Position numbers and translations under genes: made by a program | From: Heliocidaris erythrogramma | Lineage: Eukaryota; Echinodermata; Echinoidea; Camarodonta; Echinometridae | NCBI GenBank assembly: GCA_025617745.1 | Contig: CM046870.1 | Coordinates: 28,539,927-28,603,926, forward strand | Direction: 5' to 3' | Length of the DNA stretch: 64,000 nt | Shown here: piece by piece, positions 3,871-61,922 of the stretch | Layout of the letters: every line of letters begins with the position of its first letter | How positions within the stretch are numbered: position 1 is the stretch's first letter | Notes under the pieces: generated by a model | Databases searched by the model: none | What the model was told of the DNA's origin: nothing | Seen by the model: the letters and a program-made list of their open reading frames with translations, nothing else

Positions 3871-3894
3871 AATGAGTAAATAAGCAAAATTAAT

Positions 3895-4086
3895 ATAACA
3901 CAATAAAAACTACTTTCGAAAAATAAACTCAAGACAATTTCAATAGCCCTGTCTATCACCTTTAGAAATGTGCGAACATTACAATGGTGTATTACATAAT
4001 CCGAACCTTATTTCTATGGGCAGTACAATAGGCCTTTGAAATTGCCCTTGAGTTTATTTTTCGAAAATAGTTCTTATCGTGTTATA
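3895..4086. mobile_element. Small foldback (MITE-like) hairpin element, unedited copy
   Basis: Two arms of about 50 bp (3897-3945 and 4030-4085) are near-perfect inverted repeats; the shared core is TTTCGAAAAATAAACTCAAG. A loop of about 85 bp separates them. A half copy in reverse orientation lies at about 4380-4500, and a more diverged one at 53575-53700. The copy at 40735-40930 differs from this one mostly by A-to-G changes. No protein. Confidence 0.7.
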
Positions 4087-4869
4087 TGCATTATTTCTAA
4101 ATAATATCTCGATTTCAAAATAGTTTCGAATGTTGAGCGTTTATAACTAAGATCAAGAGTAAATCATATAATGTCGTATGTATCTTTGTTGACACTTAAA
4201 TTGCAGTTGAAAATCGTTTCAAATTTTTACATGCTATTATTATAGTCTAATAACAGTCCATTGTCGTTTCTAAATATTTGGGATTCAAAAAGCTTTTTTC
4301 CATGGCCAAAAGGCAAGGTTTGGTTTGATTGCGAAGACTGTCAAATAATTTCATGATCCTTATGTATTGCCTGTAGAAAGAATGTTCGGATTACGTAATA
4401 GGTCAATAATGTTCGCACATTTCAAAAGGTGATGGACGAAGCTACTGAAATTCTCTAAGGTTAATTTCTCGAAAGTATTTGCGATCGTGTTATTAAAAAA
4501 ATATAAGGTATTGTTCAACTCAAATTCTCATCAGAATATTTAGGCCAACTTTTCATAAATGGAAATTACTCATACTGCACATTCTCCTATTTATCGACAT
4601 ATGTATTTCCGTATTATGTTAAATGTCTATGTTTCACATCAAAACTTCAGTATATTTTCTATGTAATTCATACGTTTTGATATATATGTTAGTTTTTTGT
4701 TCTTCAAATTTGTATTCGTAAAGAATAAGGACAATTATTATCTTCATATAGCCTCCTACAACAGTAACGCAAAGAGGACTTGTCTCACATGGCCAATACC
4801 TATTAATTGTAATTATATTACTGAGTCTGAGTTTTTTTTACTGATGTCCAGGATCACCCTGACAGTCAG
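4087..4869. other. Intron, no gene; half copy of the hairpin element at 4380-4500
   Basis: AT-rich sequence without coding signal apart from the inverted half copy of the foldback element. The LINE body starts near the right edge. Confidence 0.5.
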
Positions 4870-11203: not shown

Positions 11204-11877
11204 CAGGGGCGTCGCTAAAGGGGGTGTGGGGTGTCACCCCCCCCCCCCCCCCACTCATAATTGCTGTCGGCCAAAAAAAAAGGAGGGGGAAAAGGGAGAG
11301 GGCAAAGGAAAGGGAAAAGGGGAAAAGAGAAAGGAGGAAAAAAAGAAAAGGAAAAAGAAAGGAAAACAAAAACAAAGAAAAGAAGGAAAGGAAAAGTGAA
11401 GGAAAGAAAGAGAGGGAAAAACTCCCTCGCTCGCAAAAACACAGGAAAATTAACCCGTTGACCACTGAATTATTTAGGTTTAATACACGAGCCACCCGGT
11501 TCCCGTAGTATATATGGGTTAATATTCGGGAAAACGCTTCCCCCTTCGGCAATAGGTTGCAGCCCACCCCCGAGGATTTTCAAAGTTCTGATACTCGGGC
11601 AGTGAAGTAATTATGTAACTTCTGTACATTTTCACTACGAATCGCATCGCTCGCTCGCATAAATTTAGAAATTGAAAAGTCGATATTCAGGCAAAAGGCA
11701 TCAGCCCCCTCCGTGCCAAAATGTGCCTGTATGATCAAAATCGCTACATATGTGATTTTCGTTCATTATTCGTGGGGTGGAGATGTGCAGCATTTTTGTC
11801 GCCAAATTTGGGTGTCACACCCCCTCCCCCTCCCCCCCCCCCCCCCATCCATTCAAAATGTTCTAGCGACGCCCCTG
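11204..11877. mobile_element. Non-autonomous TIR element, CAGGGGCGTCGCTA type
   Basis: It begins CAGGGGCGTCGCTA and ends with the exact inverse TAGCGACGCCCCTG. Next to each end is a long C or G homopolymer and a GTGTCAC/GTGTGAC block. The interior contains a purine-rich stretch (11280-11430). No transposase. The TIR style (CAG...CTG) recalls hAT-like elements, but I see no 8-bp target duplication, so the class is uncertain. Related elements: 56155-56991, and a poly-G end at 29100-29160. Confidence 0.65.
11580..11720. repeat. Partial match to the repeat pair at 59.0 and 62.2 kb
   Basis: TACTCGGGCAGTGA, GATATTCAG and a CAAAAGGCATCAGCCCC-like block follow the same order as in 58955-59160 (CAAGAGGCGTCAACCCC). 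The region inside this TIR element is therefore shared with an interspersed family. Confidence 0.5.
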
Positions 11878-23140: not shown

Positions 23141-23779
23141 AAAGGTCCACTGCGACCCAAATGCAAGTTGATTTCTGTTGATGTGCAGGGATGCACACCA
23201 CCTCATATATTGTTATTCAAACATCTAAATATGTTTCATAGATTTTGAAATATTTTTGGAAATCATTTTCTCAAACATGCTAAGCTCCATCCTAAAAAAA
23301 TGCTCCAGATCTCACTCATGCAGTGACATCATCTGTCAATCATTAGTGAGCTAAGGAGAGACAGTGGTATGTAGCTTTGCCAGAGATGACCATCTGTTCT
23401 ATTAGACCATACAATGCCTACATAGTAGTTGCTATGTCAGACATGCTGCAGTATCACCAATAAAATAATGGTAATGAGAGGTATTGTTCGAAAGCATGCA
23501 ATTCTATTGTAAGCATGTGCTGAACTGGGGAAGTTATATTCCACTGTCTATTGTAGTTTGTTAGTGTAGCTGACTCATGATTGACAGATGTCATTGCAAG
23601 AATGAGATCTGGAGCTCTTTTAGGGTGGAGCTTAGGAGGTTGGAAAAATATTTTTAAAAATATTTAAAATCTATAAAACATATTTAGATGTTGGAATAAC
23701 AAAATATTAGTTGTTGCATCCCTGCACATCAACAGCAAAAAGCTTGCATTTGGGTTGCATTTGGTTGCAGGGGCCCTTT
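23141..23779. mobile_element. Foldback element with about 200-bp arms (copy 1)
   Basis: Starts AAAGGTCCACTGCGACCCAA and ends with a near-inverse, TTGGTTGCAGGGGCCCTTT. The arms (about 23141-23345 and 23575-23779) are inverted copies, for example ATGCAAGTTGATTTCTGTTG against CAACAGCAAAAAGCTTGCAT. A second full copy is at 51484-52129. No coding capacity. Confidence 0.8.
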
Positions 23780-31660: not shown

Positions 31661-32832
31661 AAGGAGTTTTCGGATGTGTCGACTATAACTCCGCGTCCTA
31701 GATCCTCCCAGCGACAATGGATTGCTTTGTGTTGACTGGATAAACAGTAGGTGAAGCATGAAGCTAACAATGGGTGAAGCGAGGTTCACGTTTTAGAGAC
31801 GACGGCAAAACCATGTTTGACGCGTTCTCGATCTTACTAGTGGACGAGGGAGAAGCCAGTGGACGGGTGAGCCGTTCTCGCACAAAGCGCGGTATGCAGC
31901 TAACACAAAGCAGTCCATTGTAGCTGGGAGGATCTAGGACTGCCTTCAAGTCGACACAATCGAAAGCTCACTATAAAGGAGTTTTCGGATGTGTCGACTA
32001 GAACACCGTCCTAGATCCTACCAGCGACAATGGATTGCTTATTATAGTGTTGACTGGATAAGTGAAGCATGAAGCTAACAATGGGTGAAGCGAGGTTCAC
32101 GTTTTAGAGACGACGGCAAAACCATGTTTGACGCGTTTTCGATCTGACTAGTGGAAGAGGGAGAAGCCAGTGGACGGGTGAGCCGTTCTCGCACAAAGCG
32201 CGGTATGCAGCTAACACAAAGCAGTCCATTGTAGCTGGGAGGATCTAGGACTGCCTTCAAGTCGACACAATCGAAAGCTCACTATAAAGGAGTTGACTGG
32301 ATAAACAGTAGGTGAAGCATGAAGCTAACAATGGGTGAAGCGAGGTTCACGTTTTAGAGACGACGGCAAAACCATGTTTGACGCGTTCTCGATCTTACTA
32401 GTGGACGAGGGAGAAGCCAGTGGACGGGTGAGCCGTTCTCGCACAAAGCGCGGTATGCAGCTAACACAAAGCAGTCCATTGTAGCTGGGAGGATCTAGGA
32501 CTGCCTTCAAGTCGACACAATCGAAAGCTCACTATAAAGGAGTTTTCGGATGTGTCGACTAGAACACCGTCCTAGATCCTACCAGCGACAATGGATTGCT
32601 TATTATAGTGTTGACTGGATAAGTGAAGCATGAAGCTAACAATGGGTGAAACGAGGTTCACGTTTTAGAGAAGACGGCAAAACCATGTTTGACGCGTTTT
32701 TGATCTGCCTAGTGGAAGAGGGAGAAGCCAGTGGAAAGGTGAGCTAACACAAAGTAGTCGATTGTAGCTGGGAGGATCTAGGACGGGGATCTAGGACGGG
32801 GTTCAAGTCGACACATTCGAAAGCTCACTATT
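31661..32832. repeat. Four-copy satellite with higher-order A-B-A-B structure
   Basis: Units at 31661-31975, 31976-32285, 32286-32535 (left arm missing) and 32536-32832. In each complete unit the left end GTGTCGACT...GTCCTAGATCCT and the right end AGGATCTAGGAC...AAGTCGACAC are inverted, so the unit is itself a MITE-like foldback of about 310 bp. Units 1 and 3 share one set of variants and units 2 and 4 another, and equivalent points are 561 bp apart: a dimer was duplicated. The identical 61-codon minus frames are the satellite read three times, not genes. Confidence 0.85.
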
Positions 32833-34918: not shown

Positions 34919-35122
34919 ATTCGGCGGAGACGGTGATCTTGAATTCACATGACTCGAAGCCTCGATAACAAGTTACAATTACTTCGCCTTCTGAGTAGAA
35001 AGCAGGATCGAGATTACAACTGACATCGTCACCGACCGTCCACTCCACAAAAACAAATGACTCGTCCGGCTCCACGGTGGATTCTATATTTTCTGGACAT
35101 TCTAACTTAGGTGGCGGTGATC
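34919..35122 (-). CDS. Exon 3: HYR-like domain
   Basis: A 204-bp exon of 68 codons with a CCCGCAG acceptor and a T|GTAAGA donor, phase 1-1. The peptide contains KLECPENIESTVEPDESF, VFVEWTVGDDVSCNLDP, EGEVIVTCYRGFESCEF and KITVSAE. It resembles exon 1 closely in layout: CPxN near the start, a central Trp, then G-x-x-x-V-x-C and C-E-F-x-I/L-T-V. It lies about 1.1 kb upstream, in transcript order, of the first F5/8C exon and so joins HYR to discoidin without another recognisable module between. The gap to the next exon (33791-34918) shows no further coding signal that I can see. Confidence 0.78.
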
Positions 35123-35479
35123 CTGCGGGTTCAAAAAATACTATTGTATTGTTTTTTGTATAAAAGTGTATGATTTTTTTTTTTGACGGAGAATTACCTC
35201 CTCAATCCGAATCTATGCGGCTACAGGAAGACATATTCAACTGAGCTTGTACTCATATCTCATTTAAGGTTCCATATATGTTGAAATATGAATAAGGAAA
35301 CTCATGAAATACCACTTTTTTTTGCTAAGAGTCTTTATCACTTGTTTTGTTTCTTTGCACTGTACCTAATGAAATTACACTTTGCATTACTTCTGTGCGC
35401 AAACTACTTTTGACATAACTCACTTAAAACATTTCAAATTAACGCATGCATGAAAATATAATTACATATTTTGTATCAT

Positions 35480-36180
35480 AAGAAAGCAGATGAACTGAAC
35501 TTTAGCATGAATAATAAGAATCAATCCGGAATATTTATTTTTCTAGTGATTGATGGGGAAACTTGGGTTTCCTTTTCAAAGAAACACACTGTGTACTTGT
35601 TTGTTGATGACACAAATGTATTTCTCTTTATCAATATCAATGTTCTTAATGACAAACTCAGAACTGCCAATACTTGCTAAATGGTTTCGATGCAACAATG
35701 TACTATTTTTTTAAATCTTAATCAAACAAACCACATTTTTAGAACCTACAATAAACTAGGACAACACAATATATTGATGAAAATTGATGAAAATTTATGA
35801 TACTGTAATCGAGTTCATATGCAAGGAAGTTTTAAACTGGTCTGACCACATCACGTGTATTTCTAAAACCATTTCACGCAGTGTTGGTGTTCTGTCTTAA
35901 TTGAAGTTTTACCTTCTAAATATACATGTACGTCATAATACTATTACTACCGTATATAACATACTGTGATTTAATATGGCCGAATTCCAAATGACTCAAT
36001 GACTCAATTTTAAGATATCAACAACAACAAAAAAGGCTTTACGCACGTGTACTGGTTCTCACTATAAAGGGACCATATTTCCCATTTTCCCCCCAAATTA
36101 AATACCCTCAAAGTATCGGATATAAAATTTTTACCGATTGCAATGTTTATGTTTTATCTTTTCATCTTTACAAAGGCCGA
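35480..36180 (+). mobile_element. LINE relic (CR1/Jockey-type RT)
   Basis: YLFVDDTNVFLFININVLND, then KLRTANTC and FLNLNQTNHIF (35600-35745) correspond to the Y-A-D-D-T-N box with the first Ala replaced by Val, and the following helix. VLPSKYTCTSYYYYRI and SILRYQQQQKRLYARVLVL (35905-36065, with stops and shifts) continue the C-terminal RT part. Heavily mutated; both ends are missing. Confidence 0.65.
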
Positions 36181-36339
36181 CAAAAAACGCCACTGCATAT
36201 AAATCTATCATAAATAAGATCCCTAAAATCTGGATCAAACAAATTCGTGAAGTCAATCAACATTATGACGATACAGTAAAGCACAATTATTATGATCATG
36301 ACTTGCATGAAATCAGAACAGATGATGCCATTAGATTTT

Positions 36340-36740
36340 CAACAATTAAATAAAAATAATTCTATAGTTTACTGTGTGAGTTCAAGAACAGTGATCCAAC
36401 TGTACCTAAGACATTGGGAAGAACAATTCAACCTTCCTACAATTAATGTGAAATTGCAATTGAAAATTTGTGTGCTTTCTGCAAAACGAGCGAATAGTTA
36501 ATTCATGTTCTGTTAGAATGCCCCAAGGTAATGTTATTCTGGAAACGTGCTGTTGAATTCATTTGCCATGACTTCAAACAAACACTGATATTGAATAAAA
36601 AATACTTGATTGTTGGTATATGGTTTCTAATTGTTTTAAATGCTAAATATATAAATATAGTTATTACATACGCACAATACGCAATATATAACATGTATAT
36701 GTTCAGCTACTTTCCGGGGGAAAACGTACAATAATTTTGT
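36340..36740 (+). mobile_element. LINE relic (L1/Tx1-like C-terminal zinc knuckle)
   Basis: One frame reads NLCAFCKTSE, stop, LIHVLLECPKVMLFWKRAVE, then FICHDFKQTLILNKKYLIVG. A C-x-x-C ... H-x-x-x-x-C knuckle followed by FW is typical of the C-terminus of L1/Tx1-type LINEs, different from the CR1-type RT just upstream. So two LINE remnants probably adjoin here. Short and mutated. Confidence 0.55.
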
Positions 36741-36759
36741 AATACTTACCCGACTGTCA

Positions 36760-37357
36760 CATTTTATCCGATTGTCACTTTTATTACGACATTTTCGATG
36801 TAAAGTGATTTTAATCATTTATTGTTGGCTGTATTCTATAATCGAATAAATGACCTCTGAAGAGGGAAAAACAATTATACATAGTGGTCCTGACATGTGA
36901 TACTCCCTTTCTTTGGACAATAAGAATGTTCACTCAGAGTTTGCATTTTAAAGCGACAGTAAGGAGGATGCTGCTTTCTAAATATGCCGTTTGATTCATG
37001 AATTTATTTTTCAACGATGTACATTATTCATACTTACTCTCGCATGTTAATGCATATGTACGTCTGAACTAAGTAATGGAATGTGCAGCCATGCGTAACT
37101 CTTTATCACCCCATTCATTCTTCTTCTCTCATCCATCTCTCTTCAGTCTCCGTTACTTGTTCTAGGAGTGTTTTTGAAAGTGGGGGGGGGGGGGCTGATT
37201 TGATTTCACTTTTTTTAAAACCTTTTTCGACGATTTTATGATACGTTTCAACTAAAAAAAGTGGGATGCAGCCCCCAGCGCCCCCCCCCCCCCCCCGCTT
37301 CTCCGGCCCATGCTACATCGCCAGGAACCCCCTTTATTAAGATTTATTTACTTTCAG
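36760..37357. other. Intron, no gene; poly-G (37181-37194) and poly-C (37281-37297)
   Basis: A G tract and a C tract about 90 bp apart could pair; nothing else recognised. Confidence 0.4.
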
Positions 37358-37366
37358 GGGCCCACA
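37358..37366. repeat. Target-site duplication, left (GGGCCCACA)
   Basis: Identical to 42423-42431; both abut the terminal repeats of the 5-kb element. Confidence 0.75.
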
Positions 37367-37429
37367 TAGCCTTTACCAACGGCGAGTGAGCGCGATAATT
37401 TTACCGTAGCTGCAAGGGAGACTAGCTGC

Positions 37430-40110
37430 AATCGAAATACAAAAGGAAGAGTACCAGTGAGGTTCACGGATGATAAAACATTCTACATCCCCGAATACAC
37501 ATGTTTTCCCAGAAATAATACTCATAGTAGGGGCGGGTGTGCTATATACGTGCACAATTCAATTAATTATTATTACCCTCACTATGATGAAGAGCTTGAA
37601 CTCCAATCACTAGATTTTTATTTCTCACAATCCAAAATATCTGTGGTAAATTTTTATAACCCTTGTAAGAAATTAGACGAACACATTCTTAGTAAATTAG
37701 TCAAATCGGTAAAAACTAATAAATTCTTAATACTCGGTGATTTCAACTCGCACAACACTTTGTGGGGTAGTGAAAGGAATGACACAAACGGACGTATAGT
37801 AGAACATTTTATTAGTTTAAATAGCCTAGTCATCCTCAATAACACAACAGGTACAAGACTCGATCCGGTTACTGGAAAGATGTCATGCCTGGACCTTAGC
37901 ATCACCTCTCCTGACATATCAAATAAATGTTCATGGGAAGTCCTGGATAACTCACTTGGAAGTGACCACTTCCCAATAAAAATAGAGGTGTCTATGGAAA
38001 GGGCCATAGAGGTTGAACGCCAAAACTGTGAAGAACATTGGTCTTTCAAGAACATGGACTGGGTTAAATTTTCTAAAAGATGTGAAGAAATAGTTAAAGA
38101 CATCTCCTCCTCTAATCCACAAGAGGCCTTTTCACATTTTAAACAACGTCTATCAAATGTTATTAAGGAAATAATGCCTAAAAGAAGCAAGAAGAAATAT
38201 AATCCCATTCCATGGTGGACAAAAGACTACTACTACTTGAAAAACAGAACGTTTCAAGTAAAAATAGGTAACACGAAATCTGAAACATATAGAATGTACA
38301 ACGGACTACCGCAAGGGAGTGTCCTAAGCCCTATTTTATTTAACATCATGTTAAGTGACATTCCTACAGTAGAGTCAATCTCCATATCCATTTATGCCGA
38401 TGATTGTGCAATATGGATATCGGGTAATAACTTAGAATCTATAACATGCAAAATGCAGAAATATATAAATATACCGAGTGATTGATTTAAAAAATGGGGT
38501 TTTCAACTATCTCAAGATAAATCAACCCCATTACTTTTTACCAAGAAGCACAAAGTACAATATCCCAAACTGGAATTGAAAGTCAAGGAACTTGCCTTTC
38601 AAACTTCTAAACGATTTCTGGGAGTGATTTTCGATCAGAAACTTACATGGCAGCAACATATTGCAGATGTAACAACAAGATGTAAAAGAAAACTGAATAT
38701 CATCCGTAACCTGACCGGAACTTCATGGGGAAGCTCCACAAAATCCCTTATTATGGTGTATAGAGCTTATATACGATCATTAATTGACTATGGCTGTGAA
38801 GCCTATGACAGTGCATCCCCCTCCATAAAAAAACAACTTGATTCAATTCAATATCAAGCTCTAAGAATATGTGCGGGGGCACTACCACTTACTTCTTTAG
38901 AAGCTCTTCAGGTTGAAATGGGAGAACTACCACTAGATTTACGGAGACAGATGTTATCTGATAATTTTAGACAAAAAATCGAAATGCATAAAAACCACCC
39001 AGTTGTAAATAATATTAAACCATGTTGGCAATTTGAGCTAACGAAACTTCAAAAGATAAACAAACCTTTTGGATGTAGAACGGAAAAGGATTATCATATT
39101 GAGACATATAATCAAAATAATTTTCCACCTTGGTTTTTCATCCCCCGGGAGTATCAGTTGAACTTAGTAGTATTCTAAGTAAACAAGAAAATCAGGCATA
39201 TCTATATCAAGAAAGCCTTCAATTAATAAACACAAAATGGTCTTATCAACTACATATATATACAGATGGGTCAAAAGTACCCAATACAGGTATATCTGCT
39301 GCTTCTTTCTATCAAAAAGATTAAATAACCATACCTCAGTTTTTAGAGCAGAATTGGCTGCAATAGTACTTGTGTTAACTTGGTTAGAAAATATTAATAT
39401 CTACGTAGGAGCAGTAATATTTTGTGACTCACTAAGTGCTTTGTTAGCCATAAAGAACCAAAGAAATATATCTTTCGTAACCGAAATATTGACTTTAGTT
39501 ACTAAACTGAAGTACCAAGGCAAAGAAGTCAATTTAGAGTGGATACCTAGCCATTGCGGCATAAGTGGAAACGAAGCAGCAGATTTCCATGCAAAATTGG
39601 CATTAACAAAAAACATCGAAATCCAGAACAAATTAAGTTTTGATGAAGTAAAGAATCTGATCACATTAAAATATACACAGGAATGGCAAAACCGGGGGAA
39701 GATTTCAACCTGCAATTTGAGACAGATACAACCGAGAGTTCATCATTCCTTATATGAATGTCATCTTAATAGATTTTGTGAGAGTTTACTACATAGACTT
39801 CGTCTTGGTATAATTGGGCTTAACTTTGACCTTTTTCGTTTAAAACTACATCCAACTGGTTTATGTGATATCTGTAAAGAGACAGAAACAATTGATCATT
39901 ATTTTTCTTATTGTATGCCCACATTTTATTATTGAAAGAGCAATGTTGCTTACAGAAACAAATTTGAAAGAGCCTCAAGAAATTCAGGGCCTCCTGAAAA
40001 GTAACAACATCGATAAACAAAGAGCATTGATACGTTTCGTTCTCCGAACGAGACGAATATATAAAGGCCTATAGCATTACAGGTGCGCATGTGAGGATGT
40101 AGGTTTTCGT
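37430..40110 (+). mobile_element. LINE with endonuclease, RT and RNase H (I/R1/LOA-like), inactive
   Basis: Endonuclease blocks: SRGGCAIYVHNSINYYYPHY, LILGDFNSHNTLWGS (Asp/Asn), LDPVTGKMSCLDLSIT and SDHFPIKI (about 37480-37985). RT blocks: YNGLPQGSVLSPILFNIML and SIYADDCAIW (38295-38410), FLGVIFDQKLTWQQHI (38610). RNase H blocks: IYTDGSKVPNTG (39255), FRAELAAI, FCDSLSAL and LEWIPSHCGISGNEAADFHA (39345-39590), with the D-E-D-H-D set visible. EN-RT-RNase H order is typical of I/R1/LOA-group LINEs. Defects: 5' truncation of the endonuclease, an in-frame internal deletion removing the RT fingers, a TGA at 38484 and frame breaks near 39165 and 39320. Confidence 0.88.
37457..38485 (+). pseudogene. 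Fused open frame: LINE endonuclease joined to late RT by deletion
   Basis: About 340 codons stay open. Residues 1 to about 180 are endonuclease, 185-255 the following linker ending NPIPWWTKD, and then, without the roughly 200 or more residues that normally hold RT fingers and the first palm Asp, the frame continues as FQVKIGNTKSETYRMYNGLP and the Y-A-D-D box (about residues 315-318). The frame has no real start codon of its own because the 5' end is truncated. It could not reverse transcribe. Confidence 0.75.
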
Positions 40111-40734
40111 ACTTTGTATTTTATACATAGAACATTGACATACATTAATATTTGGAAGGACGTATGGTGTATGTATGTATGTATGGCAACTGCAGCTGTA
40201 TAAATTGCACGTTTTCTTGTTTAAGCGTGGCATGAATTGTTACAAACGACAGTATTTAAAAAAAAAGAAAGAAAGAAAAGATCAGGAAAGGAAAAAAAAA
40301 AGAAAAAGAAAAAGTAAAAAAAGTAAGTAAAGAAAAGCCGGACACGGGAAAATTCTCATATTTTATTATCAGCTATAATCCTGCAAATCGGATACTGGGG
40401 CTAATACTATAGATTCTAAATCTTTCATTGGTCAACGGTTGGAGAGAGTCTCCTTCGCGGCTGATGATTAGTGGCGGGTGGCTAAAGGCCAAGTGTACTA
40501 CCCCCCACAGGCTTATGCACCCCCTAGTTCATCAGTAACTCAGTTATTCGAGGAACAGGAACTTTTATAACGAAGTCTATACATATACATTCTACCTCTG
40601 TCAAATGACGTTTTTTTTTCTTACGCGCCTGTACGCAAGTCATGTAATGTAGCATCTCATGCCACCCCATATGGGGATGTGTAGGGTGTAAGTGCATAAT
40701 ATAGGTATGTATGTGTATATATTTTTTTGTATGT

Positions 40735-40930
40735 GGCACGGTGGGGGCTGCTTTCGGGAAGTGGACTCGGGACAATTTTCAATAGCGCGGTGTGTCACCT
40801 TTGGTAATGTGCGAACATTACAACCACGTATTGCTTGGTCCGAGCCTAGTCTTTGTGGGCACTGCAGTGGGCCTTTGAAATTGTACTTGGGTCCGCTTTT
40901 CGGGGGTGGCTTTTTATCGTATTATGTATG
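40735..40930. mobile_element. Hairpin element copy with A-to-G hypermutation
   Basis: Same foldback as 3895-4086. In the 37-bp outer left arm (40735-40771 against 3897-3933) 17 of 21 A positions read G, and none of the 16 C, G or T positions differ. The right arm also shows clustered A-to-G on the plus strand (GAAAATAG reads GGGGGTGG), plus a few T-to-C. The loop is A-to-G biased as well but has other changes. It lies about 0.7 kb 3' of the LINE coding end, in LINE sense. Confidence 0.75.
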
Positions 40931-41423
40931 CGTGCATGCATGTGTATATTCAAAACAAAATACAATAAAATTTAAAAAAAAGGAATGTGAGAAAGAGAGG
41001 TGAACAATAATAATGATGGTAATACAAATGGTGATACAAATGAGTACAGATGTTATGTACTTAATATTTCTATGAATATGTAAGCTTTATATCTTGTAAG
41101 CCTTAAAAAAAAATATATTCATGCACATGTATATATTATAGGAGAATTACGTAATTGTACAATTATGTGTATATATGGTACGCTGCACGATATCGATTAT
41201 CACTCATTGTCAGTAGTATGGTCCTCCTTTTTTTGCCTTACCATAGCAATACCTAAAATTTTGTGTATATAACATAGACTAAATATATATATATATTTTT
41301 TTTTCTGTTCTAACCACTTTTCTACCTTTTCTCATCTAAAGCTCCACCCTGCAAGGGCTTGTCTTCCCCACGTAGGTAGGATTAAAGGCGTCTTGTCCCC
41401 TGGAAAGATCAAGACTTCACCGA

Positions 41424-41444
41424 CGTTGATGTTCTACATCAACG
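41424..41444 (+). other. Perfect 9-bp stem-loop downstream of the LINE
   Basis: CGTTGATGT, TCT, ACATCAACG: perfect stem with a 3-nt loop. Surrounding 41340-41480 is GC-richer than its context. It could be part of a LINE 3' untranslated region, where RT-recognised stem-loops are known; this is inference. Confidence 0.4.
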
Positions 41445-41737
41445 GGACAGACGTATCCCCGCACTGTGGTACGGGTGCGGGACTGGAGCTCTTCCTTTCT
41501 TTTGCTTTCCCAGTTTCTTTCCTTTTCTCTTTCTTTCCCTTAAACTGATAGGAATTAGAGAAAGACCTCTTGAATTTGTAAATCCAAGTATATTAGATCT
41601 CCTAGCGTATTAAAATATAATTATAATAATTTTAAAAAAGAAAAATAAAATAAATGTATATACCATTGGATAGAATATCGGAATTTAATATGGCAAAAAT
41701 AGTCAAATCTGACTGGTTGCCAAACAAAAAATAATCA

Positions 41738-41757
41738 CCCCCCCCCCCCCCCCCCCC
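41738..41757. repeat. Poly-C tract at the inner edge of the split TIR
   Basis: About 20 C directly before the point where the left TIR sequence resumes (GCTTGCTGCTCACC). Confidence 0.8.
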
Positions 41758-42422
41758 GCTTGCTGCTCACCGTCTTTATCCACCCGTAACGCGGGTTGTT
41801 GTTTTTTTTATCTTGACCATTGAAATCTGCGTCGTTTTCTGACGCAGAATTCTCATACGTATTAAATTCCCTCTAGAGAAAGTAACCAATCACGAACACC
41901 GAGGTAAACTCATCATGCAAAATTTTTTTGTCACGTGATTGATCGTGACGTTTCACCCTGCTTTATCCAAAATGGCGAGTTCCACCAGCTTCGACGATCT
42001 TCTTCACGATAGTTTGAAATATGCTGCCAGCAAATTTTTTTTTGGGGGGGGGGCAAAAGTGCCATTTACGAAGCAATTCCTTTGTGTTGCGATTTCCTTC
42101 GTGAACGGCAGTACTTTGATGGTCCGGCCTTAGCCACCGGGTACGGAGGACGATGGGTGACACCCCACGACGGCAGGGCGAGTGGTTCTACGACTACCGC
42201 TGGCATCAGGTCCATCGTTGCTCTTATTTGATTGGTTGAAGGTTTCGGATAACATCCATATATGGAACGGTCGTTGAATTATTCATAGCCATTGAATACA
42301 TGAATATTGATTGCGTTACGGGTGGAAAAAGGCGGTGAGCAGCAAGCTGCCCACGTTGCAGCCACAGTAATATTATCGCGCTCACTAATATTATCGCGCT
42401 CACTCGCCGTTGGTAAAGGCTA

Positions 42423-42431
42423 GGGCCCACA
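42423..42431. repeat. Target-site duplication, right (GGGCCCACA)
   Basis: Pairs with 37358-37366. Confidence 0.75.
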
Positions 42432-42690
42432 TGGCGTCAAGCTGTTGCTTATCTTGGAGCTCCAGTTCTGTTGGATATAAGTTTCTGCTTTCATATGCAA
42501 ACTGAATTAGTATTATGTTCTTGTACTTCTACTCAGAACAGATTAAAATGAAATGGAATGAAATTAAATATATAAATACTTTTACCATTCGCCTTTGTTT
42601 TGATAAGATTATTTGAGTAATTAAACAAATGCATGTATGTTAAAAGAATGAGTCCAGCGCAGAGATCGATTTCGCGTGATATACACGTAC

Positions 42691-48777: not shown

Positions 48778-50421
48778 ACCCACGCCGATGAAATCGGCAG
48801 GGTTATGTAAAGGGCTCCGTATGTTTTTTTTTTGTTTTTTTTTTGTTTGTTTGTTTGTTTGTTTGTTTGTTTGTTTGTTTGTGTACAAGATAACAAGAGA
48901 ACGGGTGAACGGATTTGCACCAAATTTTCAGGGAATGTTCAGAAAGTGACATGAAGGAATCGATTAGATTTTGGTGATGACCCCAAACTTCGCCTGCAGA
49001 TGCAGAAATATTTTGGCCAATCAAAACACTCATTACTTCGTCTCACCAAAAGTCTATTTCAGGTTTATGAATTTTAGAAGACTTTTAGACCCATTATTTG
49101 CCATTTCACTTCAAATCCGTACGAGCCTGCAATGAATATTCAAAGCCAACGTATCCCAGCAACAAGGGATTTTTCGCGCGCTTGAACTACTACTGCGAAA
49201 GCGGCTATGTACGGTATACTAGTAATAGGCGACTCTATAACTTATAGCTAGCTAGCTATCGCGCGCGATACCTTTTTTTATCTACAAATTCATTTAGATT
49301 CAGGCTACCCTAGCCCTACGGCTTCTCCTCTATTTCTTATCTTCTGTGCATTTCTGTTTATTTTCCCTGGTTCTTTCCACTTTGTTGTGGAAGTTTTTGT
49401 GATTTATTTTATCCTGGTGGACGTGTAGTACGTGATTTTAATTGTTTTCGGTGAAAATCTGGTGAGTTTGTTCGACGTGAGTGAGTCTATCGCACTCGCG
49501 AGCGTTCGCGTGTGTTGATCTGAGTGAGTGGGCTGTGTAGCTAGCTGTACGTACATAACTATACACAGCGCTGTCGCGAAGTGACGGCGATCTGGTCGGG
49601 CTAGGGAGTACATAACCCCAGGGAGTACAGTGCCTGTGCCTGGCTGACTGTAGTAGGATTGAACTTTTTTCTTTGGGTTATAACGGTCCTGTCATTTGAG
49701 ATTTGAGTTAGTTTATAACTCATTTATGTCTGTTTGAGTGGATTTCGTAGTTGTAAAATATATACAAAAACTGTATTTTTTTTTAATTTGTGTGGATTTG
49801 CAAAATTTGGTGGCTGATCGAGGTTCGCCGAATACATGCACGCCAGTATCCACTTTGACTTTGTTGATGGGTGGTGACTGAGCTGAGTGAGTAAGCTCTG
49901 TGGCTCGCATGCATGTCATTTTGAAGTCGAGATCCAACTTATTTTGTCGTCATATTTATTTTATCCAAGCCCGATGAAAAAAAACAACCCCAATTGCAAT
50001 GTAATTTAAAGATAGAACATGAATACATTTACTAACACTTACATGACTGAACACTGAATACAAATTGCTAACATTTTTTCCTCACCACGCCACGCTCTCT
50101 GACATGTCTAATCAATTACTTTTAGGGGAGAGATGTTTCAATAATAAAATATCTTTTTCATCAGAATTTTTTCAAGGGTGGGGACACACAAAGCTATGAC
50201 CTGGATATGGCATAACTTATTGTGCGGGGGGGGTAGATGTGCCTCTTGTTATCCCCTTTGAATGGCTACTGCTTACAAAAATAATCGCAACAAAACAAAA
50301 CCTATATTGGGTTTACTTTTTTTTATACACGACAGGGGAACCAACCAGTAAAAATATCTGCAGTTTCAAGAATAATAGCTCCGCTAAGGCGTGGGTCTGC
50401 CGCCTTTGACGGCCTTTCGAA
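48778..50421 (+). mobile_element. Helentron-like non-autonomous element 1
   Basis: Starts after TT with ACCCACGCCGATGAAATCGG, followed by a (TTTG)n run. Ends with GGCGTGGGT, then the hairpin GCCG-CCTTTGA-CGGC (50399-50413) and CTTTCGAAG before TT. A terminal motif at the 5' end whose inverse is internal at the 3' side, followed by a hairpin, and TT flanks are hallmarks of Helitron2/Helentron-type elements and their short derivatives. Compared with element 2 it has an extra 1.1 kb (about 49060-50370) in which I recognise nothing. No Rep/helicase gene. Confidence 0.6.
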
Positions 50422-51483: not shown

Positions 51484-52129
51484 AAAGGTCCACTGCAACC
51501 CAAATGCAAGTTGATTTCTGTTAAAGTGCAGGGATGCATACAACTCATATTTTGTTATTCAAACATCTAAATATGTCTCATAGATTTCTAAAAAAAATTA
51601 AAGCATTTTCTCAAAGATGCTAAGCTCCACCCTAAAATATGCTCCAGATCTCATTCCTGCATTGACATCATCTGTCCATGTTTAGTGAGCTATGGAGTGG
51701 TATGTAGCTTTGCCAGAGATGACCATCTGTTCTAATAGACCATACTATGCCTACATAGAAGTTGCTATGTCAGACATGCTGTAGGATCACCAGGAAAAGA
51801 ATGGTACTGAGGAGGTATTGTTCGAAAACATGCAATTCTATTGTGAGCATCATCATTCTGCTGAGCTGGGGGAAGTTACATTCCACTGTCTATTGTAGAA
51901 CGTTAGTGTAGCTGACTGATGATTGACAGATGATGTCATTGCAGGAATGAGATCTGGAGCTTTTTTTTAGGGTGGAGCTTAGGAGGTTGGAAAAAATATT
52001 TCAAAAAAATATTTAAAAATCTATGAAACATATTTAGATGTTTGAATAACAAAATATTAGTTGTATGCATCCCTGCACATCAACAGCAAAACATTGCATT
52101 TGGGTTGCATTTGGTTGCAGGGGGCCTTT
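51484..52129. mobile_element. Foldback element with about 200-bp arms (copy 2)
   Basis: Same family as 23141-23779, same orientation, with ends AAAGGTCCACTGCAACCCAA and TTGCAGGGGGCCTTT. Diverged by scattered substitutions and small indels. Confidence 0.8.
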
Positions 52130-53464: not shown

Positions 53465-53710
53465 CCTTTTATTCCCCTTTATTAAAGATTTTAAGTCACA
53501 AAAATAAACACAGAACAGGATCGCAAAAAAAAAATCAGAGGAATCAAAGCGAGGGCAATTTCAACACCCTATTGCATAGCCTAAAAGAAAAATATTTGGA
53601 TTACATAATACGTCATTAAAATGTTAGCATATATCAACAGGAGATGGACAAAGCTATTGAAAACAACTTAGGTTGATTTTTTTTTGAATTGTGTTAGAGG
53701 TAGAACTAAC

Positions 53711-56991: not shown

Positions 56992-57620
56992 CCTATGAGG
57001 GAAGCAAAAATCCATCCCAAATGGGCTTGGACGTCGGCTCTCCATGCCCCCTCCCCCCTTCATCCTCTCCCTACACCTCCCCCTTCCCTCTTCGAGCATG
57101 CTATTATTGACTGTTCTAACAAGCCGCCGGACACTCCTCTTACCTACTCCTCTGACCAACTTGAACCAAGACTATGTACATTGCCTTAGCAAGCTTATAC
57201 ATATTCATTTCTATGACTTCAAATTGAAAGGTAACTGCGAGTTGTAGGAACTATCCTCCACAGTTTGGGAGCCTGTCCTGTCCCATCTTACCCGTAAGAT
57301 TTCACTCTGTAAGGTTATTTAGACCATCTAAGTTATTGACAAAAACGTCAGCCTGACAGTACCCGTCGGGTTTAGCTCCCAGAGCCCCCAAAAGAGACCA
57401 CAAATTCCGGTCGATTTCACCCAAAATGCTATGTATGTAAAGGAAAAAAATAATTTTCTTACCTTCTGACTATGAAAACTTAAAAGTGTTTTATTCAATT
57501 CAGTTCAAATTTTCATGATTTTGAGTATAAGAATCTACTTGAGGTGCAATTTGTTGAAATATACTATTCATGTGTTAACTGTACAGATACCAAGCAAGCT
57601 CCTCTATTATGCCTTGTGTT
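56992..57620. repeat. Unique sequence plus repeat block shared with 21.6 kb
   Basis: 57310-57440 is the inverse of 21640-21760. The rest shows pyrimidine-rich runs (57040-57090) and nothing coding. Confidence 0.4.
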
Positions 57621-57736
57621 CACGGGCGTAGACATGCATAATTATCCAATTAGTCAATAGGGGGAGGGTGATCTATTCATCACCCCCCCCCCCCCCCCCA
57701 CTAACAGTAGAAAGTATGGATGTATCTACGCCACTG
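57621..57736. mobile_element. Very short TIR-like unit with central poly-C
   Basis: CACGGGCGTAGA and TCTACGCCACTGG are imperfect inverted ends about 115 bp apart; the centre is GGGGGAGGGTGAT ... ATCACCC(C)n. Confidence 0.35.
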
Positions 57737-58129
57737 GGTGCATTTACATGTACATGACTTTTTTTTAAATATACTTTTGAGAGAGCAATACATTTTTCAC
57801 AATTTAACAGCATATTAATGAAATGACCAATTGACACCTCAAGAATCATGTAAATTTGAATTGGATTGAATAAAACACTTTTTAGTTATCATAGTCAGAA
57901 GTTAAGAAAATGTTTTTTCTTTACATACAGACCATGGGGGGAATGCATTGTCAAAGGGCACTTTGTGGTTTTCATTTCAGGGGGTCTCCTTCCCCATGGA
58001 CAATTTTGTCAGTTTTATATTTTTGGAATGTACATCCACAGCTCCTCCTTAAGATTTTCTTAATCCAAATGCTCAATTGCCTTTTTCAAAATTAAAAACC
58101 CATTTGAGATTAAAAATATAGAATAGATA

Positions 58130-60291: not shown

Positions 60292-60531
60292 TTCTCATCA
60301 GGTTATCACGCAGGTATATAACAAATTACTTGAAATCAACTATATTATACTCGGTGAACCCGGACGCAACCTAGACGCCGTAATTTCAGAACAATCGCAA
60401 AGCTTGGACGAACTCCTTTTGTCTGCACAGAAGAGGTTCTTGCGATTGAATATAAGCAGCTTCCAGAAAGCGTAAATGCGCTGAGCTTCTGGCCCGGGAC
60501 ATAATTGAGAATTGATCGTCGGCATAGCTTT

Positions 60532-61922
60532 GGCTAAGCGAGCAACTTCAGCCAGTCTTAGATCGTTTGTCTGTTCATACTGTTAGAGATTTGTTTACGT
60601 TTGCTAAACTCGTCCGCGATCTGCCCCTTGATAATAGTAATTGTGTTATGTGTTCATTCGATATCTCTAGCCTATTTACCAACGTGCCACTGAAAGAAGC
60701 TATTGACATCTGTGCTTCTTATCTCTATCATGGCGACTTAGACTCACCACCTGTTCCTGAGCCCGTATTCATTGAACTCATGAACTTTGCCACTCGCGCG
60801 GTTGAGTTTAGTTTCAATGATACGATGTATTCACAGATAGATGGTGTGGCTATGGGATCCCCATTAGGCCCCGCGCTTGCTAACATTTTTGTTGGCTTTC
60901 ATGAAATGCGCCTGCTACAGAACGCCACCGATCTTAATATAGTCCCACATGTGTATTGTCGGTATGTTGATGATACGTTTGCAATTTTTGATAACCGCGC
61001 AGCGTGTGAGGTTTTCCTTACACAACTGAACCGGCTCCATCCCGCGCTAAAATTCACATGTGAAATTGAACTGTCCAATGCGCTCCCATTTCTCGACGTT
61101 CTCGTTGAGAGAAGTGATGGGAAATTCATCACTTTCGTCTACCGCAAGCCCACATTCACCGGGCAAGTGTGCCGCGCCCTTAGGATTTGCTCTGCGTGCA
61201 AATTAGCTCCCGAAATCGCGAAAATCAAAACTATTCTCCTTGACAATGGTTACCCTGAGCATGTTATATCTCGCACCATAACACGGACGCTGGAGGCACA
61301 ATCCAAATCTGACACCAGATTTGGACCTGCCAAATGCCCCGTGTATCTCAAACTACCCTGGAGGGGTAAGGTATCTGACAAATACGCCAGTCAGATCAAA
61401 CACGCAGTGTCACGTTGCTATTACGCGGTCTCGACACGCATTGTGTTTTCTACACACAGGATGCTACCGTCAACTAGCAAGGATGTACTACCCACCCCCC
61501 ACTTGAGTAATGTTATTTACCAATTTCAGTGCCGGTGCGATGCCAGGTACGTGGGCCGTACTTCTCAGCGGTTGGCTGATCGCATTAAACAACACATTCC
61601 CTCGATTATTCGGAACCGTACAACCAATCAGCGCACGCAGCCCGTCCGTGCCTGCAAATCTGAAATGCACGCTAACAGACCAAAGATAGCCAAATGCGAT
61701 TCAGCGATTGGTCTCCACTTGCTGAACAATCCAGCTTGCGCACAAAGCAATTCTCAATTATGTCCCGGGCCAGAAGCTCAGCGCATTTACGCTTTCTGGA
61801 AGCTGCTTATATTCAATCGCAAGAACCTCTTCTGTGCAGACAAAAGGAGTTCGTCCAAGCTTTGCGATTGTTCTGAAATTACGGCGTCTAGGTTGCGTCC
61901 GGGTTCACCGAGTATAATATAA
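60532..61922 (+). CDS. Penelope-like RT with GIY-YIG endonuclease (5' truncated, damaged)
   Basis: The frame is open from about 60531 (no true start codon; the N-terminus is lost) to 61920. Counting from 60567: CSFDISSLFTNVPLKEAID (29-47) is RT motif A, IDGVAMGSPLGPALANIFVG (91-110) motif B, YCRYVDDTFAIF (130-141) the catalytic motif C, and ALPFLDVLV (172-180) and FVYRKPTFTG (190-199) the next motifs. IYQFQCRCDARYVGRTSQRL (317-336) is the GIY-YIG-like nuclease start. Compared with the family, roughly 20 residues seem missing after FTG. A 14-bp deletion near 61745 throws the last 57 codons out of frame; the original tail (ARSSAHLRFLEAAYIQSQEP) is still visible in the next frame. Probably inactive. 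Confidence 0.85.

Follow-up and report, generated by a model that had tools for sequence, protein, structure and literature searches.

Can an RNA-editing event be written into the germ line of an animal and be read there as DNA? This question is raised by a small foldback element, here called E40, in a 64,000-nucleotide stretch of contig CM046870.1 of Heliocidaris erythrogramma (hereafter the window; all positions are counted from its first letter). We consider it probable, at roughly 0.7, that a LINE transcript carrying the foldback was hyperedited by ADAR and that the edited RNA was reverse-transcribed into the genome; the enzyme, the reverse transcription step and the vehicle are what we infer from the DNA. 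If E40 is what it seems to be, RNA editing can leave its record in the germ-line genome via retrotransposition.

An A-to-G excess in one copy of a foldback family

The family in the window consists of four copies, of which only E40 is edited; "edited" is used below for sites of A-to-G change.

E40, 40731..40930 (~0.2 kb), plus strand: hyper-A-to-G foldback element, MITE-like, with inverted ends; A-to-G at 38/69 A against S39 and at 35/67 against a leave-one-out consensus
S39, 3893..4090, plus strand: sister copy without the edits, its 41-nt outer arms forming 38 Watson-Crick pairs
M44, 4347..4493, minus strand: degenerate copy, inverted relative to S39
M53, 53552..53681, minus strand: degenerate copy

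E40 can be aligned to S39 over its full length. Bounds of 40735..40930 had been given in a preliminary description of the locus; the right end stands, and the start is placed at ~40731. The arms of S39 (3893-3933 and 4047-4087) are terminal inverted repeats (TIRs), and its termini read TATAACAC...GTGTTATA. By eye, TATA is present at both ends of S39, where a target duplication and a TIR end look alike because TA is self-complementary; we take these ends to resemble those of a MITE with a TA target. MITEs of that kind are ~0.2 kb long, with long TIRs, TA-rich ends and no coding capacity. E40 is like them in all of these respects, but as DNA its TIRs are complementary at no more than 14 of 29 positions. 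S39 and M44 (together 3893-4493) are inverted copies ~260 bp apart and could pair within a transcript.

Relatives of the element were also sought beyond the window. In viral contigs, three sequence patterns gave no match and one pattern gave a single match, and the pattern search of genome contigs returned 12 matches. These 13 pattern-matched loci were rejected as relatives and ascribed to chance, since in BLAST of 3881-4120 the alignments covered no more than 22 bases, at the pattern itself (best E 1e-5), and no further alignment had E below 0.23. No relatives of the element were found in plasmids by blastn.

Against S39, G has replaced A at 38 of 69 positions in E40 and C has replaced T at 6 of 66 (Fisher P 6e-9); the remaining changes are C-to-T (4), G-to-A (3) and A-to-T (2), with no A-to-C. 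A MAFFT alignment with no bonus for A/G pairs gave nearly the same values (A-to-G at 38 of 70 A, T-to-C at 7 of 68 T). The observation from which the locus was originally proposed, that the left arm at 40735-40771 has G in place of 17 of the 21 A found at 3897-3933 with none of the 16 other bases altered, was reproduced exactly on recounting. The right arm, which had likewise been described as A-to-G, carries the change at 9 of the 11 A of its S39 counterpart (4051-4090).

The other members of the family have no such spectrum. Pairwise comparisons of S39, M44 and M53 (MAFFT) contain 4-5 A-to-G and 4-6 G-to-A changes within 49-56 mismatches. Relative to the leave-one-out consensus, A-to-G was found at 35/67 in E40 versus 3/51 in S39, 5/57 in M44 and 3/58 in M53, the S39 value being lenient because the consensus takes the reverse complement of S39 as one of its rows. 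An equal A-to-G bias in ordinary copies, the outcome held to speak against the original proposal, was thus not what the window contains. T-to-C occurs at 5/49, 6/47 and 5/46 in the other copies and at 6/66 in E40, so that there is no overall excess; editing of the opposite strand of E40 was rejected on the basis of this background level. The alignments support a change that was one-stranded and A-to-G only.

In order to place this spectrum among the repeats of the window, 79 repeat pairs (E <= 1e-4, at least 80 nt, some of them overlapping; 150 rows less their mirror rows) were compared. In the pair E40/S39, 26 of 46 mismatches are the same transition in the same direction (binomial P 1e-9 under a crude 1/6 null), by far the lowest one-sidedness P among the 79 pairs, the runner-up having 7e-4. 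A window-wide tendency towards A-to-G between repeats is excluded by this comparison. E40/S39 also ranked first of the nine pairs that passed the filter of a three-letter scan in which A was read as G. The ratio of TA to TG, which needs no reference copy, is 10:22 in E40, 21:11 in S39 and 5126:4115 in the whole window. In the 200-bp flanks of E40 it is 24:15 and 32:19, which is normal, so the A-to-G change stops at the ends of the element. Purine skew alone is not unique to E40, being stronger in stretches such as 49341-49540 and 11241-11440, the second of which is a purine tract.

Which of the two states is older was judged from the other copies and from the arms. Of the 37 edited sites, none has G in both M44 and M53, 4 have it in one or other of the two, and 26 have A in one or both. 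The outer arms of S39 form 38 Watson-Crick pairs over 41 positions; with only 14 such pairs in its 29-bp stem, the G state of E40 is unlikely to have been that of a working TIR element. From the M44 and M53 bases together with the complementarity of the arms, A is judged ancestral at the edited sites, in agreement with the polarity first proposed.

A one-strand G·T stem and the placement of the edits

The two arms of E40 face each other as follows.

40743..40771, plus strand: left arm of a 29-bp duplex with no mismatches if G·T is allowed (14 Watson-Crick and 15 G·T pairs)
40886..40914, plus strand: right arm of the duplex

The preliminary description had reported a hypermutation signature carried by a foldback, and the change is indeed bounded by one. 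When one arm was shuffled 200,000 times, a mismatch-free 29-bp stem with G·T allowed was never obtained. Stems were scanned on both strands, ungapped and with low-complexity rows dropped; the E40 G·T stem was listed on the plus strand only. G·T pairs make up 52% and 59% of the two E40 rows among the 42 stem rows obtained, and 0-19% of the other 40. The capacity to form long dsRNA is thus present in the 38 Watson-Crick pairs of the 41-nt S39 arms and in the E40 duplex with its 15 G·T pairs.

The base upstream of an edited site is not random. In the first alignment, A was edited after T at 16/21, after A at 16/27, after G at 3/8 and after C at 3/12 sites; in the second, editing followed a 5' W at 32/48 and a 5' S at 5/17 sites (P 0.011), the S count in the first alignment being 6/20. 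This upstream preference resembles that of ADAR, with the qualification that a 5' G (3/8) is not rarer than a 5' C (3/12) among edited A, and no preference for a 3' A is visible at the edited sites. According to the available part of a study of animal transcriptomes, upstream G depletion is the feature common to ADAR editing, and invertebrates favour a downstream A (PMC5625713). The dense A-to-G change in repeats able to form dsRNA described there is like that of E40; the differences are that it was found in RNA, is not inherited as DNA and, in invertebrates, has the 3' A preference not seen in E40 (PMC5625713).

The edits are unevenly distributed along the element. Editing is dense in the outer stem, at 27 of 34 A (18/23 in one arm and 9/11 in the other). 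Further in follows a stretch that is spared on either side of the duplex (0/6 and 1/4, or 1/10 together), and the centre, outside the long stem, has 10 of 25 edited; the borders of these three zones were chosen with the alignment already in view. Edited sites are clustered (26 runs vs 35.3 in shuffles, P 0.015). Relative to the predicted fold there is no excess at paired sites (25/47 edited, with 13/22 at unpaired sites), and local editing of the facing arms is weakly correlated (r 0.30, with 2 of 15 shifted controls equally high). The patch spared on both sides of the duplex suits an RNA folded on itself; the edited centre and the lack of a paired-site excess suit pairing with a second copy or with antisense RNA. 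Both arrangements may have contributed.

Several T-to-C changes of the right arm had been described as complementary to changes in the left arm. Three of them, at 40893, 40894 and 40896 (plus strand), do lie exactly opposite edited left-arm sites, namely 40764, 40763 and 40761. As support for a folded template this is weak, given that T-to-C shows no overall excess (6/66) and that, of the T bases with an A partner in the S39 fold, 3/25 opposite edited sites and 1/22 opposite unedited ones have become C. Given these two fractions, the trio may be due to chance. Short G·T mismatch repair in a DNA hairpin or template switching from arm to arm would also produce such changes, and compensation after integration is a possible source. 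The editing of a single strand leaves the T-to-C cluster unexplained.

A LINE-bearing stretch within an outer element

E40 lies in a nested arrangement of mobile elements.

37358..42432, no strand assigned: outer DNA element with TIRs, flanked by the repeats GGGCCCACA(T) at 37358-37367 and 42423-42432
37430..41757, plus strand: 4.33-kb stretch with the LINE fragment and E40 (an insertion, possibly nested), splitting the left TIR of the outer element
37430..39935, plus strand: LINE, 5'-truncated and inactivated, with endonuclease, partial reverse transcriptase and RNase H (Pfam)

The outer TIR element is ~5.06 kb in length with a flanking duplication of 9-10 nt, and by the length of this duplication we take it to be Mutator-like. 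Its right end has two tandem 18-bp units (TAATATTATCGCGCTCAC) and its left end has one.

The borders of the stretch were read from the outer element, whose left TIR is interrupted: 37368-37429 and 41758-41792 align one after the other to the intact right TIR, with an overlap of 9 nt there, and a left TIR split in this way indicates that the 4.33-kb stretch landed in it. The stretch is flanked by ACTAGCTGC (37421-37429) and GCTTGCTGC (41758-41766), a 9-nt repeat that agrees at 7 of 9 bases. It could be one insertion or several nested ones.

A Pfam scan of six reading frames detected PF14529, PF03372, PF00078 and PF00075 in the LINE, the start of which is not fixed to the base. The element is dead, as its frames are interrupted by stops and its reverse transcriptase matches only positions 100-164 of the 205 in the profile. 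At 37370-38485, the reverse transcriptase lacks its first half, yet the endonuclease and the remainder stand in one open frame. Target-primed reverse transcription leaves a LINE cut at its 5' end. A feature of retro-insertion is present here, in that a 5'-truncated LINE with endonuclease and reverse transcriptase begins at the left border (37430), its endonuclease being the first recognisable part of the stretch, in plus orientation. Searches of PDB with one LINE frame gave no match, and none was obtained from Rfam at gathering scores or from ARAGORN.

The 3' end of the stretch carries no terminal poly(A) or tail repeat, as a C run extends up to 41757; A-rich tracts occur only inside the stretch (40255-40335 and 40974-40981). 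An alternative 3' end, at the AATAAA followed by A8 at 40964-40981, was superseded by the split-TIR borders. Such signals occur at three places in the window, both strands counted, and are weak markers. A target repeat matching an end at 40964-40981 was sought in 35001-40000, where the longest candidate was one 10-mer (ATTTAAAAAA at 38485) and the 8-mers included GGAATGTG at 37078.

These borders bear on what was first proposed for the LINE. That the edited strand equals the sense strand of the LINE is upheld, E40 and the LINE having the same orientation within the TIR-splitting stretch. The LINE was said to end ~0.7 kb upstream; it is upstream and on the same strand, but its frame ends at 39935, 0.8 kb away. 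A read-through transcript integrated by 3' transduction had been suggested. The presence of LINE and E40 in one stretch agrees with this, but transduction itself is not borne out by the C-tract end, the missing poly(A) and the repeat agreeing at 7/9. Because the 3' end of the LINE cannot be fixed from one copy, E40 may equally lie within a long 3' UTR of the LINE or beyond the LINE's own end.

Proposed origin, competing readings and precedents

The reading that we favor is built on the one-sided spectrum, the older A state, the limits at the ends of the element, the duplex that G·T pairs complete on one strand, the ADAR-like context and the co-location with a LINE, as far as these can be read from the DNA. 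Under this reading, a small MITE-like foldback would have been inserted as DNA into, or just behind, the 3' end of a LINE, and a plus-strand transcript of LINE and foldback would have become double-stranded over the element. ADAR would then have converted about half of the adenosines of the element to inosine, only where the RNA was double-stranded. The edited RNA would have been reverse-transcribed, its inosines fixed as G, and integrated with the 5'-truncated LINE. The most likely vehicle would be the LINE-bearing stretch at 37430-41757, the sense strand of which is the edited strand. We further infer that the element was first inserted as DNA and that the stretch is a single insertion made by the LINE machinery. 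For the narrower proposal, in which ADAR hyperediting of the transcript of a foldback-bearing non-LTR retrotransposon took place in the germ line and LINE reverse transcription fixed the inosines, we see an even balance of odds.

The main rival is editing in place, in which ADAR or another adenosine deaminase would have acted on the DNA of an RNA:DNA hybrid or of an extruded hairpin, with no retro-insertion. The same strand bias and context would be expected from it, and DNA editing in RNA:DNA hybrids has been described, the cases reviewed in the available part of PMC12925331 being limited to model substrates and mutant enzymes. We consider this rival unlikely. Editing of a hybrid should track the length of the R-loop and not stop at the ends of the element, as the TA:TG ratios indicate, and the stretch around E40 bears a LINE in the matching orientation, although neither point is decisive.

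Somewhat less probable again is a G-rich subfamily, in which the A-to-G event took place earlier and elsewhere, from whatever cause, and was spread by ordinary DNA transposition. The comparison rests on four copies, which leaves some room for such a lineage, but a 29-bp stem with 14 Watson-Crick pairs should spoil TIR transposition, and M44 and M53 nowhere share G at the 37 edited sites.

Ordinary strand-biased mutagenesis of DNA, whether transcription-associated A-to-G change or the work of an error-prone polymerase preferring WA, is improbable enough to count as a minor contender. Such mutagenesis is known to have a WA context and an asymmetry tied to transcription. Against it stand the specificity, with 38 A-to-G changes to 2 A-to-T and no A-to-C, and the density, about half of the A having changed within 200 bp between flanks of normal TA:TG; no other pair in the set of 79 comes near E40/S39. 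As compared with the hyperediting of a LINE transcript by ADAR, the reverse polarity, with G old and the other copies hypermutated from G to A by a cytosine deaminase, is scarcely credible and was rejected, for although the spectrum alone cannot separate A-to-G from G-to-A, the bases of M44 and M53 (both have G at 0/37 edited sites, one or both have A at 26) and arms that are poorly complementary as DNA in E40 and well complementary in S39 stand against it.

The deaminase-driven reverse transcription model for somatic mutation, which is contested, offers a distant parallel to the hyperediting and reverse transcription proposed here. In the available parts of the sources, deamination followed by reverse transcription into DNA is proposed for antibody-gene and cancer mutations (PMC5704389, PMC11817618, PMC12941027). 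The proposed copying of deaminated nucleic acid back to DNA is the likeness to E40; the difference is that somatic loci are concerned, with no mobile foldback or LINE insertion in these parts (PMC5704389, PMC11817618, PMC12941027). Editing scars of APOBEC type (G-to-A) have been documented in genomic retroelements (Zaranek 2010, PMC2873906). These share with E40 the clustering of one mismatch type in genomic retroelement copies and differ in arising through cytosine deamination of cDNA; in the part of that paper available, A-to-G in genomic DNA served for comparison, and it was in RNA traces that ADAR editing was found (PMC2873906).

Within the literature available in part, the closest precedent for E40 is that of A-to-G hypermutated avian retroviruses. 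In Rous-associated virus and avian leukosis virus, A-to-G hypermutation of nearly 50% of adenosines has been attributed to ADAR, the reports cited being Hajjar and Linial 1995 and Felder 1994 (PMC12925331, available part). The A-to-G clusters lie in a retroelement, in the LTR and in an inverted repeat (PMC12925331), which is the likeness to E40; the difference is that they are retroviral, whereas E40 is a MITE-like foldback in a genomic LINE-bearing stretch. The same text states that L1 retrotransposition is restrained by ADAR1 and that editing is apparently not responsible (PMC12925331). Among the literature matches listed, whose titles and opening abstracts cover the field in part, none was found to describe ADAR scars in genomic LINEs or MITEs.

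If the proposed origin is true, this locus preserves a single RNA-editing event as heritable DNA, and ADAR would act on mobile elements as a mutator, in parallel with APOBEC. Such scars could be found without RNA data, as hairpins that are fully paired only with G·T on one strand. Since these hairpins are recognisable from DNA, one window having been scanned in this way, the question can be put to the test in any animal whose genome has been sequenced.

Other mobile and foldback sequences were observed in the window. A Penelope-like element on the plus strand at 60528-61922 has a reverse transcriptase followed by GIY-YIG, the latter just under the Pfam cut-off. Two foldbacks of ~0.5 kb, apparently of one family, lie at 23206-23706 and 51552-52052, and their arms contain TTGTTATTCAAACATCTAAATATGT. 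Stems clustered at 31695-32826 reach 62 nt and are repeated in alternating orientation, and the top-scoring stem of the window scan, at 57442-57922, consists of 81-nt inverted arms with 69 Watson-Crick pairs.
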